A DNA stretch of 64,000 bases from Silvimonas iriomotensis (GTDB taxonomy: Bacteria > Pseudomonadota > Gammaproteobacteria > Burkholderiales > Chitinibacteraceae): contig NZ_BMLX01000003.1 of assembly GCF_014645535.1 (NCBI RefSeq), forward strand, positions 372,001-436,000. The letters run 5' to 3'. How positions within the stretch are numbered: position 1 is the first letter of the stretch; every line of letters starts with the position of its first letter. Below are positions 1 through 7,691 of the stretch, one piece after another. The translations under genes and the position numbers were made by a program. The notes under the pieces were generated by a model. That model was not told the DNA's origin and did not search any database. It saw only the letters and a program-made list of their open reading frames with translations.

Positions 1-572
1 TCAAGCAATTGTTCCGGCGTGGCAAAGGCGATGCCGCGCAGGGGGTGCTGCGGGCCAACGACCAGTACCTGTTCGTAGTCAAACACCGGTTCAAACTGCA
101 GCCCCGGTTTGTGCAGCGGGTCTGGTGTGACCAGCATGTCGATCTCGTAACCGAACAGGGCGCCGATCCCGCCGAACTGGAATTTCTGCTTCACGTCCAC
201 ATCCACCGCGGGCCAGGCGGTCAGATATGGGGCGACCACCTTGAGCAGCCACTGGTAACACGGGTGGCATTCCATGCCGATGCGCAATGCGCCGCGCTCG
301 CCCTTGGCAAACTGGCGGAGGCGCTCTTCCGCATGGCCCAGCTGGGGGATCAGCCGGTTGGCCACGGCAAGCAGGTACTCACCAGCCTGGGTGGGGCGCA
401 GGCTGCGTCCTTCACGATGCCAGACGTCAATGCCAAGCTGGTCTTCCAGTTTGCGCATGGTGTGGCTGAGCGCTGACTGGGTCAGGTTCAGTTGCTCTGC
501 GGCTGCGGTCAGTGAGCCACGCTGGTCGACTTCGCGCAGGATGGCAAGGTGGATACGTTCAAGAATGGGCAT
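1..572 (-). CDS. metR: MetR-like LysR-family regulator (3' end outside window)
   Basis: The reverse strand is open from an ATG at 572 to the window edge, giving about 190 residues. The N-terminus MPILERIHLAILREVDQRGSL is a LysR winged helix-turn-helix, with the recognition helix around residues 18-40 (AAEQLNLTQSALSHTMRKLE). The effector-binding domain starts near residue 90 and is cut off. The ATG has an AGGA motif about 5 bases upstream. The gene is divergent from metE with about 107 bp between them, the classic metR-metE arrangement. In MetR the effector is homocysteine and metE is the activated target. The family is certain from the sequence; the MetR name rests on resemblance and context. 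The C-terminal part is not visible. Confidence 0.88.
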   Translation of the reverse strand, partial: MPILERIHLAILREVDQRGSLTAAAEQLNLTQSALSHTMRKLEDQLGIDVWHREGRSLRPTQAGEYLLAVANRLIPQLGHAEERLRQFAKGERGALRIGMECHPCYQWLLKVVAPYLTAWPAVDVDVKQKFQFGGIGALFGYEIDMLVTPDPLHKPGLQFEPVFDYEQVLVVGPQHPLRGIAFATPEQLL

Positions 573-593: not shown

Positions 594-629
594 TTCATTG
601 ATGGATGAAACAATACCATTTTTCTTCAT
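594..629. promoter_or_regulatory. Candidate MetR operator between metR and metE
   Basis: A perfect inverted repeat TTCAT-N6-ATGAA lies at 594-609, and a further TTCAT half-site lies at 625-629. LysR proteins bind interrupted dyads, and MetR recognises TGAA/TTCA half-sites, so this cluster in the divergent spacer is the likely operator. The half-site spacing is not the textbook TGAA-N5-TTCA, so the assignment is an inference. Confidence 0.4.
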
Positions 630-679: not shown

Positions 680-2980
680 ATGACCATGGCACGTACCCAC
701 AACCTGGGCTTTCCCCGCATCGGCGCGAAGCGTGAACTGAAGTTTGCGCTGGAGTCCTATTGGAAAGGCCAGTCATCCCGGGATGAACTTCAGGCCGTCG
801 GCGCGCAATTGCGGCAGCGCCATTGGCAAGACCAGGCCGGCCTTGATCTGGTGCCGGTTGGCGACTTTGCCTTCTACGATCAGGTGCTGGACATGAGTTT
901 CACCCTGGGTAACCTGCCGGAGCGGGTTCAGGGGTTTCATGGCGATGCGCTGGATAACTATTTTCGGGTGGCCCGCGGCCGTTCTGCGCAGTCTGCAGAG
1001 GACCACGCCCATTGCTGCGGCGGGGTAGCGGCCGGCGAAATGACCAAGTGGTTTGATACCAACTATCACTACATCGTCCCGGAGTTCAGCGCAGACACTG
1101 AATTCAAGCTCGATGCCTCGCGCTTGCTGGCGCAACTGGCGCAGGCGCAGGCCCTGGGCGTGCAGGCCAAGCCGGTCATCATCGGCCCGGTGACTTACCT
1201 GGCGATCGGCAAGGCCAAGGATCACTCCGACAAGCTGGCGCTGCTGCATCGCTTGCTACCCGCTTATGTGGAACTGCTGGCCACCCTGGCCGCACAGGGC
1301 GTGGAATGGGTGCAGATTGACGAGCCGATTCTGGTTACCGAGCTGGAACCCGGCTGGGCAACGGCGTTCGACAAGGCCTATCAGATCCTCAATACCGGCA
1401 AGGTTAAACTGTTGCTGGCCATGTACTTTGGCCAGTTGCAAAGCAATCTGCCGCTGGTGGCCAGGCTGGCGGTCCAGGGTGTGCATCTGGACGCGATCAA
1501 CGCCCGCGCTGAGGTGGCGGCACTGATCGACCAATTGCCGGCAGATCGCGTGGTTTCGCTGGGTGTGATCAATGGCCGCAACATCTGGAAAACCGACCTG
1601 AACGCCGTGCTGGACTGGCTGGCGCCGATCGCCGGGCGATTGGGTGATCGCCTGTGGATTGCCCCGTCTTGCTCGCTGCTGCACGTGCCGGTTGATCTGG
1701 AGAGCGAACAGGCGCTGGATGCCGAGATCAGATCGTGGCTGGCGTTTGCCAGACAAAAGCTGGATGAGTTGTCAGTACTGGCCAGCGCACTGAATCATGG
1801 GCGCGCTGCGGTGCAGGCCGCGCTGGATGCCAATCAGGCGGCCATTGCCACGCGTCGTGCCTCGCCGCGCGTGAACAACCCGGCGGTGAAGGCCGCGCTG
1901 GCCAGCATCACCGCCAGTCTGGGTCAGCGCAAAAGCCCGTATGCCGCACGTGCACTCAAGCAGGCCGCAGTGTTGAACCTGCCGAAATTCCCGACGACGA
2001 CCATCGGTTCTTTTCCGCAAACCGCAGAAATCCGCCAGGCGCGCAGCCAGCACAAGCGTGGCGAACTGGGCGCAACAGGCTATCTGACTGCCATGCGCGC
2101 CGAGATTGAGCGCAGCGTGCGCGAACAAGAGGCGCTGGGGCTGGATGTGCTGGTACACGGCGAGGCCGAGCGCAACGACATGGTGGAATACTTTGGCGAG
2201 CAACTGGATGGTTACGCGTTCAGCCAGTTCGGCTGGGTGCAGTCTTACGGCTCCCGCTGCGTGAAGCCGCCGATCCTGTTTGGTGATATCAGCCGCCCCA
2301 AAGCAATGACAGTGGAGTGGATCAAATACGCCCAGTCGCTGACCCGCAAACCCATGAAGGGCATGCTGACCGGCCCGGTGACGATCCTGAACTGGTCTTT
2401 TGTCCGTGACGACCAGCCGCGTTCCGTATCGTGCTACCAGCTTGCGCTGGCCATCCGCCAGGAAGTGCAAGACCTGGAAAAAGCCGGTGTCCGGGTGATC
2501 CAGATTGACGAAGCAGCCCTGCGTGAAGGCCTGCCGCTGCGCAAAGCCCAGTGGCAAGCGTATCTGGACTGGGCGGTGGCCGCGTTCCGGCTGACCGCGA
2601 ATGGCGTAGAGGACGACACGCAGATTCACACCCACATGTGCTATTCGGAATTCAACGACATCATCCAGGCGATTGCCGCCATGGATGCAGATGTGATCAC
2701 CATCGAGACCTCGCGTTCGGATATGGAGCTGCTCGATGCATTCGAGCACTTCCAGTACCCGAACGAGATCGGGCCGGGCGTGTATGACATCCACTCGCCA
2801 AATATCCCGAGCGAAGCGCACATGGTGCAACTGATGAAGAAAGCGGCGGAACGCGTGCCGGCTGAGCGCCTGTGGGTGAACCCGGACTGCGGCCTGAAGA
2901 CGCGCCAATGGCAAGAGGTGATCCCGGCGCTGACCAATATGGTCAACGCCGCCAGGACCTTGCGCGCAGAACTGGGCTAA
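680..2980 (+). CDS. metE: Cobalamin-independent methionine synthase MetE
   Basis: This cytosolic enzyme transfers the methyl group of 5-methyltetrahydropteroyl-triglutamate to homocysteine, the last step of methionine synthesis. The 766-residue length is normal for the family. The N-terminal motif [13 protein letters not shown] is typical of MetE. All four zinc ligands are present: H652, C654, E676 and C737, with the same spacing as E. coli H641/C643/E665/C726. There are two possible starts: ATG 680, three bases after AGGA (673-676), or ATG 686 with a better nine-base spacing. The second gives [11 protein letters not shown], closer to family N-termini. It is divergent from metR and probably activated by it. 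A hairpin terminator follows. Confidence 0.97.
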
Positions 2981-3006
2981 GCGCTGTTGCGTGGCGGCCT
3001 GGCTGA

Positions 3007-3034
3007 ACCCTGGTGCCCTGGCGCCAGGGTTTTT
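3007..3034 (+). terminator. Rho-independent terminator of metE
   Basis: An inverted repeat ACCCTGGTG / CGCCAGGGT, with one or two G-T pairs, is followed by TTTTTG. It lies 27 bases after the metE stop and separates metE from the mesX-mesD unit. Confidence 0.75.
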
Positions 3035-3113
3035 GTTTCTCAGGTGCTGCTGTGTGCTACGGCTGGTGTGTGAGTCATGAGCAAAAATAATCGTTCAATG
3101 AGATAAAATCACT

Positions 3114-3141
3114 TTTACTCATGGATTGGTCGTCATAAAAT
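3114..3141 (+). promoter_or_regulatory. Candidate sigma-70 promoter of mesX-mesD
   Basis: TTTACT (3114-3119) and TAAAAT (3136-3141) are separated by 16 bases, in an AT-rich stretch between the metE terminator and mesX. The -10 matches the consensus in 5 of 6 positions and the -35 in 4 of 6. It would give a leader of about 120 bases to the preferred mesX ATG. It suggests that the folate-independent pathway has its own promoter, separate from metE. Confidence 0.4.
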
Positions 3142-3268
3142 TTGCCTTGATTATCGTCAATATAAAGGCCGCTGATTTAAACAAATGCCTGAAAAGAAAA
3201 CAGAGCAGTGCAAAAGAAGCACGAAATCAGCGCAGGTTTTATCTCAGCAATCAGAGTGCCAGATCACC

Positions 3269-4252
3269 ATGACTCAAGAATTCACATTTTCCATCAAGCG
3301 CATTGGTTTTGATGAAGATTATCATCCTTCAGAAAACACGCGTGTTACCACCAATTTTGCGAACCTGGCCAGAGGCCCCAGCCGCCAGGAGAATTTACGC
3401 AAAACCTTCCGGATGATCGACAATCGTTTCAATGCGCTGGCGCATTGGGATAACCCGCAGGGTGATCGTTATGCGGTCAATCTTGAGATCATTTCTGTCG
3501 AGATGAATATGGGTGGCGCAACCAATGGCAATGCGCTGCCGTTGATCGAGATTCTGAAAACACACATTGTTGATCGCAAAACCGGTCAGCGCATTGAAGG
3601 CATTGTCGGCAACAATTTTTCATCCTACGTGCGCGATTATGATTTCAGCGTGCTCTTGCTGGAACACACCCGCAACCAGCCTGAATCTGGTCTGCCGGAT
3701 CATTTTGGTGAACTGCACGGCAAGCTGTTCAAGTGCTTTGTCAATTCAAGCGAATACAAAGCCAGCTTTAACAAGTTGCCGGTGATCTGTCTAAGCGTGT
3801 CCAGCAGCAAGATTTATCATCGCACTGAAAACCGGCACCCGGTACTGGGTGTTGAATACCAGCAGAATGAATACTCGCTGACAGATGAGTATTTCGGAAA
3901 AATGGGCTTGAAGGTCCGTTATTTCATGCCGCCCAATAGCGTTGCACCGCTGGCGTTTTATTTTTCTGGTGATTTGCTGAATGACTATACCGATCTGGAA
4001 TTGATCAGCACCATCAGCACCATGGATACCTTCCAGAAAATTTATCGGCCCGAAATTTACAATGCCAATTCGCCCGCCGGCAAACACTATCAACCCAGCC
4101 TGAAGTATCAGGATTTTTCCTTGACTCAAATTGTTTACGATCGGGAAGAGCGTAGCCGCCTGGCGGTTGAGCAAGGGAAATTTGTTGAAGAACATTTCAT
4201 CAAACCGTATCAGACCATGCTTGAGCAATGGTCTGCCAGTTACGCGCTTTAA
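3269..4252 (+). CDS. mesX: MesX (DUF1852), partner of methionine synthase MesD
   Basis: This 327-residue protein belongs to DUF1852, recognisable from MTQEFTFSIKRIGFDEDY and VTTNFANLARG. No signal peptide or membrane segment is seen. DUF1852 proteins (MesX) are encoded next to the MetE-core protein MesD and are required for its folate-independent, oxygen-dependent methionine synthesis; the chemistry of MesX is not settled. ATG 3269 is chosen because it gives the conserved N-terminus. An in-frame ATG at 3185 would add 28 polar residues that do not look like the family. The next gene starts 26 bases after the stop, so the two are probably co-transcribed. It lies just downstream of metE, which fits a methionine role. 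Confidence 0.88.
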   Translation: MTQEFTFSIKRIGFDEDYHPSENTRVTTNFANLARGPSRQENLRKTFRMIDNRFNALAHWDNPQGDRYAVNLEIISVEMNMGGATNGNALPLIEILKTHIVDRKTGQRIEGIVGNNFSSYVRDYDFSVLLLEHTRNQPESGLPDHFGELHGKLFKCFVNSSEYKASFNKLPVICLSVSSSKIYHRTENRHPVLGVEYQQNEYSLTDEYFGKMGLKVRYFMPPNSVAPLAFYFSGDLLNDYTDLELISTISTMDTFQKIYRPEIYNANSPAGKHYQPSLKYQDFSLTQIVYDREERSRLAVEQGKFVEEHFIKPYQTMLEQWSASYAL

Positions 4253-4278
4253 CCATTAAAAAAACCAGGTTATCCATT

Positions 4279-5313
4279 GTGAAAAAACTGCTACCCACTT
4301 CCACTGCCGGCAGCTTGCCCAAACCCGCCTGGCTGGCACAGCCCGAAACGCTCTGGTCGCCCTGGAAACTGCAAGGCGAAGAATTGCTTGAAGGCAAACA
4401 GGATGCATTGCTGTTGTCTTTGCAAGAACAATTGCACGCCGGCATTGATATCGTCAGTGATGGCGAACAGACCCGCCAGCACTTTGTCACCACGTTTATC
4501 GAACACCTCAGCGGGGTGGATTTTGCAAGACGTGAGGTCATCAAAATCCGCAATCGCTATGATGCGAGCGTACCCACCGTGGTGGGCGCCGTCTCACGCC
4601 CCAGGCCGGTGTTTGTTGACGATGCCAGGTTCTTGCGCCAGCAAACCACGCAGCCGATCAAGTGGGCGCTGCCAGGCCCGATGACGATGATCGACACGCT
4701 GTACGACAGCCACTACAGAAGCCGCGAAAAACTGGCCTGGGAATTTGCCAAAATCCTTAATCAGGAAGCGCGGGAGCTGGAAGCGGCGGGGGTCGATATC
4801 ATCCAGTTTGATGAACCCGCGTTCAACGTGTTCTTCAATGAAGTCAATGACTGGGGCGTCGCCGCCCTGGAGCGGGCCATTGAAGGGCTGAAGTGCGAAA
4901 CGGCCGTGCACATTTGCTATGGCTACGGCATCAAGGCCAATACTGAATGGAAAAAAACGCTGGGCTCGGAATGGCGGCAATATGAAGAAGCCTTCCCCAA
5001 ATTGCAAAAATCCAGTATTGATATCGTCTCTCTGGAATGTCATAACTCCCGGGTGCCCATGGATCTGATTGAACTGATCCGCGGTAAAAAAGTGATGGTG
5101 GGCGCCATCGACGTGGCCTCCAGCACCATTGAGACGCCAGAAGAAGTGGCCGATACGCTCCGCAAAGCGCTGCAGTTTGTCGATGCCGACAAGCTTTATC
5201 CGTCAACCAACTGCGGCATGGCCCCGCTGGCGCGTGGCGTGGCCAGAGGCAAATTGAACGCATTAAGTGCCGGCTCGGATATGGTTCGCAGAGAACTCTT
5301 GAACCAGTCCTGA
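4279..5313 (+). CDS. mesD: MesD, MetE-core folate-independent methionine synthase
   Basis: This 344-residue protein matches only the C-terminal catalytic barrel of MetE. It carries the zinc/homocysteine ligands H211, C213, E253 and C312 and lacks the N-terminal half that supports folate binding in full MetE. Such short MetE-core proteins paired with DUF1852 form the MesD family, which makes methionine from homocysteine without methyl-folate and needs MesX and O2; the natural methyl donor is uncertain. GTG 4279 is chosen: AGG lies at 4267-4269, nine bases upstream, and the N-terminus KKLLPTSTAGSLPKPAW is that of the family. An upstream ATG at 4228 would overlap mesX and add unrelated residues. 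Confidence 0.9.
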   Translation: MKKLLPTSTAGSLPKPAWLAQPETLWSPWKLQGEELLEGKQDALLLSLQEQLHAGIDIVSDGEQTRQHFVTTFIEHLSGVDFARREVIKIRNRYDASVPTVVGAVSRPRPVFVDDARFLRQQTTQPIKWALPGPMTMIDTLYDSHYRSREKLAWEFAKILNQEARELEAAGVDIIQFDEPAFNVFFNEVNDWGVAALERAIEGLKCETAVHICYGYGIKANTEWKKTLGSEWRQYEEAFPKLQKSSIDIVSLECHNSRVPMDLIELIRGKKVMVGAIDVASSTIETPEEVADTLRKALQFVDADKLYPSTNCGMAPLARGVARGKLNALSAGSDMVRRELLNQS

Positions 5314-5403
5314 GCCAAAAGCCCGAAGACCTTTGCTGGCGCTGGCCAAACCAGATTGCTGCAAGGGTTGGCGGGCCGGCCTGTATATTGATCCGCATTA
5401 GAA

Positions 5404-5420
5404 GGCGATGCCGTGCGCAT
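5404..5420 (+). other. Small hairpin in the leader of the flavin reductase gene
   Basis: CGATGC / GCATCG form a six-pair stem with a five-base loop, about 23 bases before the flavin reductase ATG, in the 129-base spacer after mesD. It has no U-tract, so it is not a terminator. It may affect translation, since no clear Shine-Dalgarno sequence is seen before the ATG. Confidence 0.35.
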
Positions 5421-5442
5421 CGGATGAAATCCAGTACCTGTC

Positions 5443-5952
5443 ATGTCACTTTCCAGTTCTGCTATCGAGCCATTGCGCTTTCGTGAAGCGCTTGGGCATT
5501 ACGCATCCGGTATCACGGTCATTACCTCACTTATTGATGGCGAGCTGATCGGCTTCACCTGCCAGTCGTTCTACAGCGTATCCATGAGCCCGCCGCTGGT
5601 GTCATTCAGCGTCATGTCCAGTTCTGCCAGTTACCCCAAAATCCGCCAGGCTGGCCGGTTTGCCGTCAATATCCTGTCGGATGAACAAGTGCGGATTTCC
5701 AACCAGTTTGCCCGGCGCGGTACGGACAAATGGCACCAGGTGGACTGGCAGTCCTCGCCTTTGGGCAACCCCATCATTGCCGGCAGCCTGCACTGGCTGG
5801 ATTGCGAAATTTACGCCGAACACGCCGCGGGCGATCACCTGATCGTGATTGGTGAAGTGAAAGCGCTGGACTTGCAAGAAGCGGCCACCACGCAGCCGCT
5901 GCTGTATTACAAAGGGCAGTATCGCAATATCGCTGAGCACGGCGCGGTGTGA
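5443..5952 (+). CDS. Flavin reductase-like FMN-binding protein
   Basis: This 169-residue protein has the flavin reductase split-barrel fold. FREALGHYASGITVITS (about residues 13-29), the FTCQSFYSVSMSPPLVSFSV flavin-binding segment and a C-terminal LLYYKGQYR are typical of the short-chain NAD(P)H:flavin oxidoreductases that feed reduced flavin to two-component monooxygenases. It follows mesD on the same strand after 129 bases. No monooxygenase gene is adjacent, so its most plausible client here is the oxygen-requiring MesX/MesD system. That partnership is inferred from position only. A strong terminator lies after the gene. Confidence 0.85.
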   Translation: MSLSSSAIEPLRFREALGHYASGITVITSLIDGELIGFTCQSFYSVSMSPPLVSFSVMSSSASYPKIRQAGRFAVNILSDEQVRISNQFARRGTDKWHQVDWQSSPLGNPIIAGSLHWLDCEIYAEHAAGDHLIVIGEVKALDLQEAATTQPLLYYKGQYRNIAEHGAV

Positions 5953-6021
5953 TCCGCCCTTAGCTCAAACGCAGCAGGTGTCCTGTATGCAAGGCCGGCA
6001 CCGGCGCGTTGACCAGTCAGG

Positions 6022-6048
6022 AAAAAGCCCTCGGAAGAGGGCTTTTTT
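6022..6048 (+). terminator. Strong Rho-independent terminator
   Basis: AAAAAGCCCTC and GAGGGCTTTTT form an 11-base-pair stem around a GGAA tetraloop, and the T run continues. It ends the mesX-mesD-flavin reductase transcription unit. Confidence 0.93.
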
Positions 6049-6182
6049 CATTTTGTCATTGCCGCGTTTTTGCCGGCGCCAGCGCATAAACCCGCTGGTC
6101 TGCCTAAGATAATTCATTGCCTTTGGCCCCGGTTTGTATCCGGGTGCCTTCACTTTGCAGTGATTTGACCAGGGAGACCGAT

Positions 6183-7691
6183 GTGGATCGACGCAATTTT
6201 CTGCTCGCCAGTGCCGCCACCGCCATGGCTGGCGCGGCAACACTTTCAGCGGGCGAGGCACAAGCAGATACAGAGCCCGTTGCACTGACGGGCGCGGCTG
6301 GCGCCAGGGGCGAGCCGTTGGGGGGCCAGCCGCCAGCCGGGGCCAGAACCTCAATGAAAGACTTCGATTACGAGGTCAAATACCACCGCGCGTTTGAAGC
6401 CGTGCTGTGGAACATGCCGGCTATTGCGATCTACACCTTCCGCCGCGCAGCATTTGAGACGCTGGGCCTGAAAGACAACGACATCATCACGTACTCAAAA
6501 CCAGCAACGCCGCTGCTGGAGGCCATTACCGCCAACAGCACCACGCCGTACATTTCGGCGTTTTCAGATTTGCGCCAGGGCCCGGTGGTGCTGGAGCTTC
6601 CTCCCGCCGGGCCGGATGGCAGCCTGTATGGGCAGGTGGTGGATGCCTGGCAATTCACCATTGCCGATGTCGGGCCGTCCGGGCTGGATAAAGGGCAGGG
6701 CGGCAAGATCCTGTTCACGCCGCCTGGCTACACCGGCACCGTGCCGTCGGGCTATATCCATGTGCCCTCGCCCAATTACCGCATTGCATTCGCTTTTCGC
6801 TCTGTCCCGGCGGCGGGCAAAACGACGGACGACGCGTATCACTACGCGCAAAAGCTGCGCATGTATTACTTGTCGCAGGCCGGCAGCCCGCCCCGGCAAA
6901 AGTTTGTTGACCCGGCCAACGTGCGTTATCCCACGCTGCCGTTCTACGACGAACGCCATTTTGAAGACATGCACGAGATCATGACGGTCGAGCCGGTGAA
7001 GGAGCAAGACAAGGTCATGATGGGGATGCTGACCTCGCTGGGCATTGAAAAAGGCAAGCCGTTCTCGCCGGATGACACCGCAAAGCGCGCCATGTGCCAG
7101 GCCGCGATTGATGCCTGGTTCTATCTGCAATGGTGGTTTGATACCGAAATGGTCAAGCGCGTGTTCTGGCCTGATCGGCATTACGTCTCGATTTTGCAGA
7201 CCGACCAGAACCACATGTTCACCTTCACTTACCCTGACCGCATCGACATTACCGAACGCGCCGCCGAGTATTTCTGGTGTACCTACATGCCCAAAGTGGT
7301 TGCCGACTCCCCGGCCAACCAGTACCTGGTGGCCATGAGCGACAAAAACGGCAAGTTGCTGGAAGCGGGCAAACTGTACAAGGTGGACGTGCCCAAAGAC
7401 ATGCCGGTGAAGCAGTTCTGGGCACTGACCGTCTACGACCGCGCCACGTTCTCGTTCATCTACAGCGAATCCAGTCGCACCACGCTTTCCACCTATGACG
7501 TGGAAAAGATGAAAAAGAATGCCGACGGCAGCGTCACCTTGTATGTCGGCCCCACCGCGCCAGCGGGGCTGGAGGCCAACTGGATTCCCACCAGCGGCAA
7601 ACGGCCTTTACCCACCTTCCGTTACTACGGCGCCAAAGATGAACTGAATCAGAAAGTTTTCAAAATGCCGGATTTTGAGCTGGTGGGCTGA
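6183..7691 (+). CDS. Tat-exported DUF1254/DUF1214 protein
   Basis: This 502-residue protein has an N-terminal DUF1254 region (AVLWNMPAIAIYTFRRAAFETLG near residues 65-90) and a C-terminal DUF1214 region (FWALTVYDRATFSFIYSE near 415-430). GTG 6183 is preferred: AGGGAG lies about 8 bases upstream, and the product begins MDRRNFLLASAATAMAGAA, a twin-arginine signal peptide with cleavage expected around GEAQA. An upstream ATG at 6117 would bury the signal. The family is secreted, often encoded as tandem copies, and its molecular function is not known. Here the second copy downstream is broken. Confidence 0.85.
   Translation: MDRRNFLLASAATAMAGAATLSAGEAQADTEPVALTGAAGARGEPLGGQPPAGARTSMKDFDYEVKYHRAFEAVLWNMPAIAIYTFRRAAFETLGLKDNDIITYSKPATPLLEAITANSTTPYISAFSDLRQGPVVLELPPAGPDGSLYGQVVDAWQFTIADVGPSGLDKGQGGKILFTPPGYTGTVPSGYIHVPSPNYRIAFAFRSVPAAGKTTDDAYHYAQKLRMYYLSQAGSPPRQKFVDPANVRYPTLPFYDERHFEDMHEIMTVEPVKEQDKVMMGMLTSLGIEKGKPFSPDDTAKRAMCQAAIDAWFYLQWWFDTEMVKRVFWPDRHYVSILQTDQNHMFTFTYPDRIDITERAAEYFWCTYMPKVVADSPANQYLVAMSDKNGKLLEAGKLYKVDVPKDMPVKQFWALTVYDRATFSFIYSESSRTTLSTYDVEKMKKNADGSVTLYVGPTAPAGLEANWIPTSGKRPLPTFRYYGAKDELNQKVFKMPDFELVG

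Follow-up and report, generated by a model that had tools for sequence, protein, structure and literature searches.

A probably acquired locus of cobalamin-independent methionine synthases, metE and mesX-mesD with a flavin reductase, in Silvimonas iriomotensis

We analysed a 64,000-nucleotide stretch of the Silvimonas iriomotensis genome (Chitinibacteraceae; contig NZ_BMLX01000003.1, positions 372,001 to 436,000; hereafter the window), in which a LysR regulator gene on the minus strand is followed on the plus strand by metE, mesX, mesD and a flavin reductase gene. We consider it probable, on balance, that this set of cobalamin-independent methionine synthase genes was acquired horizontally and is under MetR-type control, with a replaceable reductase as helper, and that it stands in for the deleted native metE-metR pair. 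The system is of a known kind; the new details concern the deletion of the native pair, the two matching operator-like sites and the counts of reductase exchange. MesD requires MesX and O2, and neither methyl-folate nor cobalamin (Price 2021, PMC7857596; this paper and the two others below are cited from the available parts of their texts). The same paper predicts that MesX uses flavin, offers the methyl supply to MesD also as a prediction (the methyl donor was unknown in 2021), and already notes a nearby flavin reductase that possibly serves MesX. No paper on MesX biochemistry after 2021 was found in the open-licence PubMed Central (PMC) literature.

The features of the locus are as follows.

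1..572, continuing to about -327 left of the window, minus strand: MetR-like LysR regulator, N-terminal part (PF00126 and PF03466; 299 amino acids in the genome)
605..629, no strand: operator-like site ATGAAACAATACCATTTTTCTTCAT between regulator and metE (exact ATGAR-N15-YTCAT)
680..2980, plus strand: metE, full-length two-domain methionine synthase, folate-dependent and cobalamin-independent, xenologous (TIGR01371, 1107 bits, cut-off 930)
3005..3032, plus strand: terminator-like hairpin after metE (12-pair stem, T tail)
3098..3122, no strand: operator-like site ATGAGATAAAATCACTTTTACTCAT upstream of mesX (exact ATGAR-N15-YTCAT)
3114..3141, plus strand: weak sigma-70-like promoter match (9 of 12), overlapping the operator-like site 3098..3122
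3269..4252, alternative start 3185, plus strand: mesX (PF08908, DUF1852, 'Putative oxygenase MesX'; 618 bits, Pfam cut-off 25)
4279..5313, plus strand: mesD, MetE-core methionine synthase with GTG start (NCBIfam NF006589, 695 bits, cut-off 392)
5443..5952, plus strand: flavin reductase (PF01613, 151 bits, Pfam gathering cut-off 27), nearest to the HsaB-type reductases of two-component monooxygenases (HsaB equivalog NF045630, 183 bits, under its cut-off of 230)
6020..6049, plus strand: terminator-like hairpin after the reductase gene (13-pair stem, T tail)

The mesX, mesD (together mesXD), reductase and metE genes had been correctly named in a first-pass annotation of the sequence, all being over the cut-offs of their families. 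For comparison we used the 80 closest mesX loci from genome_contigs; the window's family, in which 9 of 43 genomes carry mesX including the window's own (i.e., 8 relatives); an even phylum sample of 398 genomes, 44 of them with mesX (43 apart from the window's own); and seven plasmid loci examined, from 209 plasmid records that match mesX. The closest-loci and family sets are close kin, unlike the phylum sample. Alignments comprised 139 loci in all, including the window.

Loss of the native pair and origin of the present locus

The genus' own metE-metR pair has been deleted in the window's genome, and the present locus stands in for it, as synteny shows. At the native site both flanks are syntenic with those of congener G437, metE is gone and the regulator is reduced to about 110 bases; the metE of the window is the sole MetE over cut-off in its genome. 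Its product shares 58.3, 59.2 and 58.6% amino acid identity with the MetE proteins of three congeners, where metE is divergent from another LysR gene that is nearer to MetR, and it is 82.7% identical to the second MetE of family member G411 and 79% identical to the MetE of Paraburkholderia oxyphila. With 58–59% identity to the congeners and an emptied native site, the window's metE was rejected as a native gene. The first-pass annotation had described metE as a second, folate-dependent route in the same cell; this is right, and MetH, also encoded in the genome, adds a third methionine synthase route, but the metR-metE pair turns out to replace a deleted native one and to share an operator motif with mesX.

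A foreign origin is also indicated for mesXD, because none of the three congeners has mesX, the GC content deviates (0.471 for mesX, 0.555 for mesD and 0.567 for the reductase gene, against 0.595 for the window), and the nearest rows on the MesX tree belong to Herbaspirillum, Burkholderia, Achromobacter and Paraburkholderia, not to family relatives. The tree holds 85 of the 139 sequences (near-copies were left out), including four of the eight family relatives; three of these, with a second reductase type, group with Acinetobacter (support 82, which is modest) and the fourth lies elsewhere. In P. oxyphila (locus L034), LysR-metE lies about 3 kb upstream of mesXD-reductase in one stretch. A metE scoring above 400 bits was found within the examined mesX stretch in two of 132 loci, one of them being the window. 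The simplest history is that the native pair was lost and the present locus gained, LysR-metE and mesXD having arrived either together or separately.

The MetR-like regulator and its operator-like sites

The LysR protein of the window scores 222 bits against the NCBIfam MetR model NF011950, under the cut-off of 382, as does a congener's MetR (247 bits); it may still work like MetR, being divergent to metE with ATGAR/YTCAT half-sites. The earlier description of the metR gene as complete holds for the genome; in the window the gene runs off the left edge. Scores of 198–227 bits against the LysR proteins of native metE loci set it in a separate subfamily, and it matches most LysR proteins of its kind near mesXD at 461–512 bits (two at 382 and 393, and one, cut by the end of its locus, at 274). 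This type was found near mesX in 21 of the 80 close loci, 6 of 43 in the phylum sample, 0 of 8 in the family and 3 of 7 on plasmids, and at 10 further mesX loci the LysR is nearer to the congeners' MetR.

In a survey of the 398 genomes, with at most five candidates scored per genome, the window's type was found in 31 at 299.8 bits or more (the next score below is 263.6): in 16 of 44 genomes with mesX versus 15 of 354 others (Fisher's test, odds ratio 12.9, kinship ignored). Among the 15 carriers without mesX, the regulator gene is beside metE in 14. Six of the 14 other mesX genomes examined that have the regulator carry it within 1.5 kb of mesX or mesD.

A dyad search upstream of mesX covered 138 of the 139 loci, one with fewer than 200 bases upstream being excluded. 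The known MetR box TGAA-N5-TTCA is exact in 55 of the 138 (controls: 0 and 2), and the wide 25-bp motif ATGAR-N15-YTCAT occurs in 42 (two control sets: 0/138 and 2/138), i.e. in 18 of 30 loci with a window-type LysR near and in 23 of 107 without. The 64-kb window contains exactly two exact sites of the wide motif, at 605–629 and 3098–3122, where 0.18 are expected; only 1 of 100 shuffles had two. Using a stricter pattern fitted to both sites and allowing up to two mismatches, we found only these two in the 4.59-Mb genome, and none with a reversed control. Out of 15 LysR-metE loci, including the window, 8 have an exact wide site and 13 have one with at most one mismatch, and P. oxyphila L034 has wide sites before both metE and mesX. 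Since the same motif stands before metE and mesX and, in its stricter form, nowhere else in the genome, the two may be under common control; the sites suggest a single MetR-like LysR regulon of two operons, metE and mesX-mesD-reductase.

Such control has a precedent, as PF08908-metE2 is a well-conserved predicted member of the MetR regulon (Leyn 2014, PMC4239095). Compared with the available part of that description, MetR-type control of metE and PF08908-metE2 and the half-sites ATGAA/TTCAT are the same; the published motif has 5 bp between its half-sites, whereas 15 bp separate them here, with an NYCAY resembling a middle half-site, and the congeners' MetR falls outside the LysR subfamily of the regulator here. 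Riboswitch control was rejected, the window having no Rfam match at gathering scores.

A separate transcription unit for mesX-mesD-reductase, which the first-pass annotation had given its own promoter and terminator, is inferred from a hairpin before it, the operator-like site, and a hairpin after it. The hairpins at 3005–3032 and 6020–6049 stand out by their stems of 12 and 13 pairs, compared with 5–6 for the remaining terminator-like sites (7 found in the region versus 4.1 ± 2.2 expected, a count that by itself proves nothing). As for the promoter, matches like that at 3114–3141 are at chance level by count (3 found, 2.8 ± 1.7 expected). The mesX stop codon is 26 bp from the mesD start.

MesD, MesX and the flavin reductase

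MesD has 344 amino acids and matches PF01717 only, i.e. it has the catalytic core of MetE but lacks the N-terminal folate domain. Counted from the GTG at 4279, the zinc ligands H211, C213, E253 and C312 are where the first-pass annotation had placed them, and the substrate residues S12, E63 and D178, known from the structure 3RPD (PMC7857596), are present as well. Across 139 aligned MesD proteins six of these seven residues are invariant and C312 varies once; 3RPD is also the closest solved chain. Outside the window 131 loci have a full mesX, and in every one of them mesD follows on the same strand, with a flavin mononucleotide (FMN) reductase gene in between at locus L161. A divergent MesD subgroup (L138, L155, L161, L171 and L177) scores 412–437 bits against the window's MesD, the remaining rows of the 139 scoring above 500; three of these five loci have an MsuE-type reductase, and three a MetR-like LysR nearby.

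The start of mesX at 3269 is favoured over 3185, because the Pfam model begins there and, in 101 of 139 loci, the 28 codons before the equivalent position contain an in-frame stop. Starts in the MesX alignment were chosen by length, and the alignment is thus no evidence on this point. The stretch 3185–3268 is partly alike in close relatives despite the in-frame stop in those 101 loci, and it could represent a conserved leader instead of coding sequence.

An AlphaFold2 model of MesX built with 79 relatives is confident (mean predicted local distance difference test score 85, predicted template modelling score 0.88). Against the PDB, its best Foldseek E-values are 0.18 (whole) and 0.15 (residues 1–240), and a second structural comparison gave best Z scores of 3.9 and 4.7, respectively. 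By sequence there is no solved MesX relative (a single row, E 1.3), and besides PF08908 no Pfam family was matched by more than 2 of the 79 members at E up to 10. For residues 1–240, acetyl- or acyltransferases (GNAT and related kinds) account for 13 of the first 14 weak rows, the best with Z 4.7 over 119 aligned residues at a root-mean-square deviation of 4.9. The full model has the order strand-helix-helix-three strands-helix, which we take to be that of the GNAT fold. With major histocompatibility complex class I rows close behind (Z 3.2), the GNAT likeness of the N-terminal part of the model can serve as a lead only, and novelty of the fold is not implied. Residues H150, C174, H190 and E196 of MesX are invariant.

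The window's reductase resembles HsaB-type reductases in family (PF01613) and size; it differs in scoring below the cut-off of the HsaB model and in that its partner would be MesX, not HsaA. How often a reductase adjoins mesXD depends on the set. A PF01613 gene lies just downstream of mesD in 70 of the 80 closest loci (HsaB-like as in the window in 56, and of a second type in 14; L060, with a 26-bit match only and nothing found by tblastn, was counted as without) and adjoins mesXD in all 8 family relatives (the second type in 7, the window's in 1). Out of 43 pairs in the phylum sample, among the matches listed, two adjoin a PF01613 gene and four a same-strand MsuE-type gene of the unrelated family PF03358; three of the four, and so three of the six reductase loci, belong to one genus. 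The numbers expected by chance are about 0.13 for PF01613 and 0.34 for PF03358, about 0.47 in total, when genes on both strands up to 3 kb away are allowed; under that rule seven would be observed rather than six, since in G375, one of the remaining 37 pairs, a PF03358 gene lies on the opposite strand, 2.1 kb past mesD. Weak PF03358 genes could escape this count.

Among the seven plasmid loci, two have an MsuE-type gene directly upstream of mesX (L171 and L177), one has PF01613 and four have neither. MsuE/SsuE-type FMN reductases thus take the place of the window's reductase beside mesX in six loci (L141, L143 and L144 of one genus, L161, and the two plasmids), upstream of mesX or, in L161, between mesX and mesD.

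We also scanned the neighbours of the 37 phylum-sample pairs up to 2 kb away. Of 163 called genes, the 16 with fewer than 390 bases were set aside, which gave 147; proteins of 700 or more amino acids were left out. The 25 commonest of 212 families include no flavin reductase, a view that hides families in one or two loci: the PF03358 gene of G375 is in the set yet was not shown. The gene caller also made errors in a GC-rich locus. Clustering of all open frames was too noisy, and usable only for the MsuE cluster and for leads. On the MesX tree, reductase presence is clustered, one clade of 42 rows (support 98) holding 28 of 29 HsaB-type cases; for the MsuE type, with four of its six loci in the tree, the supported branches force one origin only. 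From its clade-clustered presence and varying adjacency, the reductase therefore looks like a clade-bound, exchangeable helper.

Some further observations were made around mesXD. In L161 (G082:C1:2594368-2607333), mesX, the MsuE-type gene, mesD and a presumably queH-like gene lie between two copies of one transposase-like frame, an arrangement that resembles a composite transposon; this genome also has another copy of mesX, a broken one, at a different place (L162, G082:C1:2169963-2182446). Genes of the TauE/SafE sulfite exporter family (PF01925) account for 9 of the 147 neighbouring genes, and a TauE/SafE-like cluster of open frames, assigned by likeness, spans 17 loci (including L017, L124, L125, L132, L135, L136 and L150). 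Plasmid locus L173 of Acinetobacter lwoffii has the order mesX-mesD-reductase-TauE (TauE/SafE by annotation), closely preceded by two IS5 transposase genes, a QueH gene and one that encodes a methylenetetrahydrofolate-reductase C-terminal domain protein. Of the 209 plasmid records, 74 are typed mobilizable or conjugative. In the window, a DUF1254/DUF1214 protein gene (6117–7691) adjoins the locus, with a further copy in the same genome at 80% DNA identity, copies in congener G437 (69–82%) and a partial copy in G439.

Proposed explanation and its rivals

In the explanation we favour, the MetR-like LysR, presumably a homocysteine-responsive activator, would act at the two like operators and switch on metE and, 2.5 kb further, mesX-mesD-reductase. 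MesD would hold homocysteine as a zinc thiolate, as judged from MetE, the 3RPD structure and the conserved residues, and MesX would use O2, a need of the family that others have shown, to make or deliver the methyl group. MesX is probably a flavin-dependent oxygenase receiving reduced flavin from the downstream reductase, which would be a lineage-specific, replaceable helper. Relative to the MesD/MesX system described in the available part of PMC7857596, the two families, the zinc and substrate residues, the nearby flavin reductase and the co-occurrence with MetE and MetH are the same; the differences are the place beside a xenologous metE, the shared operator motif and the HsaB-like PF01613 reductase, and that part of the paper contains no count of how often a reductase adjoins the pair.

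Several observations weigh against parts of this explanation. LysR-metE has a GC content of about 0.615 compared with 0.47–0.56 for mesXD, and the two halves may have arrived separately. The wide motif was discovered on the same data in which it was counted, it is absent upstream of mesX (at up to one mismatch) in 9 of the 30 loci with the LysR near, and the narrow published MetR box has no exact match before metE or mesX in the window; in 8 of the 14 other mesX genomes examined that have the regulator neither metE nor mesXD is within 1.5 kb of it. The 129-bp gap between mesD and the reductase gene makes co-transcription uncertain. Among the matches listed, the MesX model has no significant structural match in the PDB, flavoenzymes included. 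In the phylum sample, 37 of 43 mesXD pairs have neither PF01613 nor PF03358 adjacent, among the matches listed.

E. coli encodes its own flavin reductases. In this host, mesD and mesX alone restored metE and metF mutants (Price et al., PMC7857596). This result, together with the many pairs without an adjacent reductase in the even sample, disfavours a fixed three-part system, as which the first-pass annotation had read the set, and the reductase was rejected as an obligatory third part. The adjacency that this annotation had proposed to count is common among close and family loci and infrequent in the phylum sample. Its suggestion that the reductase may supply reduced flavin is likely to be right: a need for reduced flavin is supported because unrelated reductases occupy the same place, and in Acinetobacter baumannii added B12 lowered the DUF1852 gene ABUW_3198 (log2 -8.33) together with the flavin reductase gene ABUW_3196 (log2 -2.52), as reported in the available part of a 2026 mBio paper (PMC12892962). 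Judging from their locus tags, two apart, these genes are neighbours.

We regard it as rather unlikely that the reductase is instead a bystander or housekeeping gene which travels with mesXD in one clade without serving MesX, any cellular reductant being sufficient. The 37 pairs without it and the complementation of E. coli fit such a role, as does a presence that tracks MesX clades, which hitch-hiking would also produce; an adjacency above chance in the even sample (even with three of the six loci in one genus), the unrelated families at the same place and the co-repression with DUF1852 by B12 speak for a function. A flavin-free MesX that uses O2 or H2O2, e.g. with a bound metal or a CoA-type ligand, while the reductase keeps iron or another cofactor reduced, seems unlikely. 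Its case draws on the lack of a significant PDB match, the acyltransferase rows and the four invariant residues, which might hold a metal; Z scores below 5 and Foldseek E-values of at least 0.15 carry little weight, however, and beyond PF08908 the Pfam search added nothing in its favour. That metR-metE is the genus' ordinary native pair, next to which mesXD-reductase happened to insert as an independent backup, is very improbable. The rarity of metE near mesX and the GC difference between the halves would agree with it, but it is already contradicted by the low identity to the congeners' MetE, the emptied native site, the common operator motif, and the P. oxyphila stretch with both units and both motifs.

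Going beyond the favoured explanation, we suggest only tentatively that MesX is an enzyme dependent on reduced flavin and O2 and built on a scaffold without a solved relative (perhaps with a remote GNAT-like, acyl-CoA-binding core), which would take its methyl group from a central metabolite and into which any available flavin reductase could be plugged, and that a MetR-like regulator exchanges this module with metE or combines the two as one cobalamin-independent methionine regulon.

The occurrence of unrelated flavin reductases beside mesX above chance provides independent support for a flavin-dependent step and makes a direct assay an obvious choice. With its two operator-like sites, the locus is a small natural system in which a single regulator may govern both a folate-dependent and a folate-independent synthase, and in which the choice and timing of the two routes, metE versus mesXD, can be measured in one strain.

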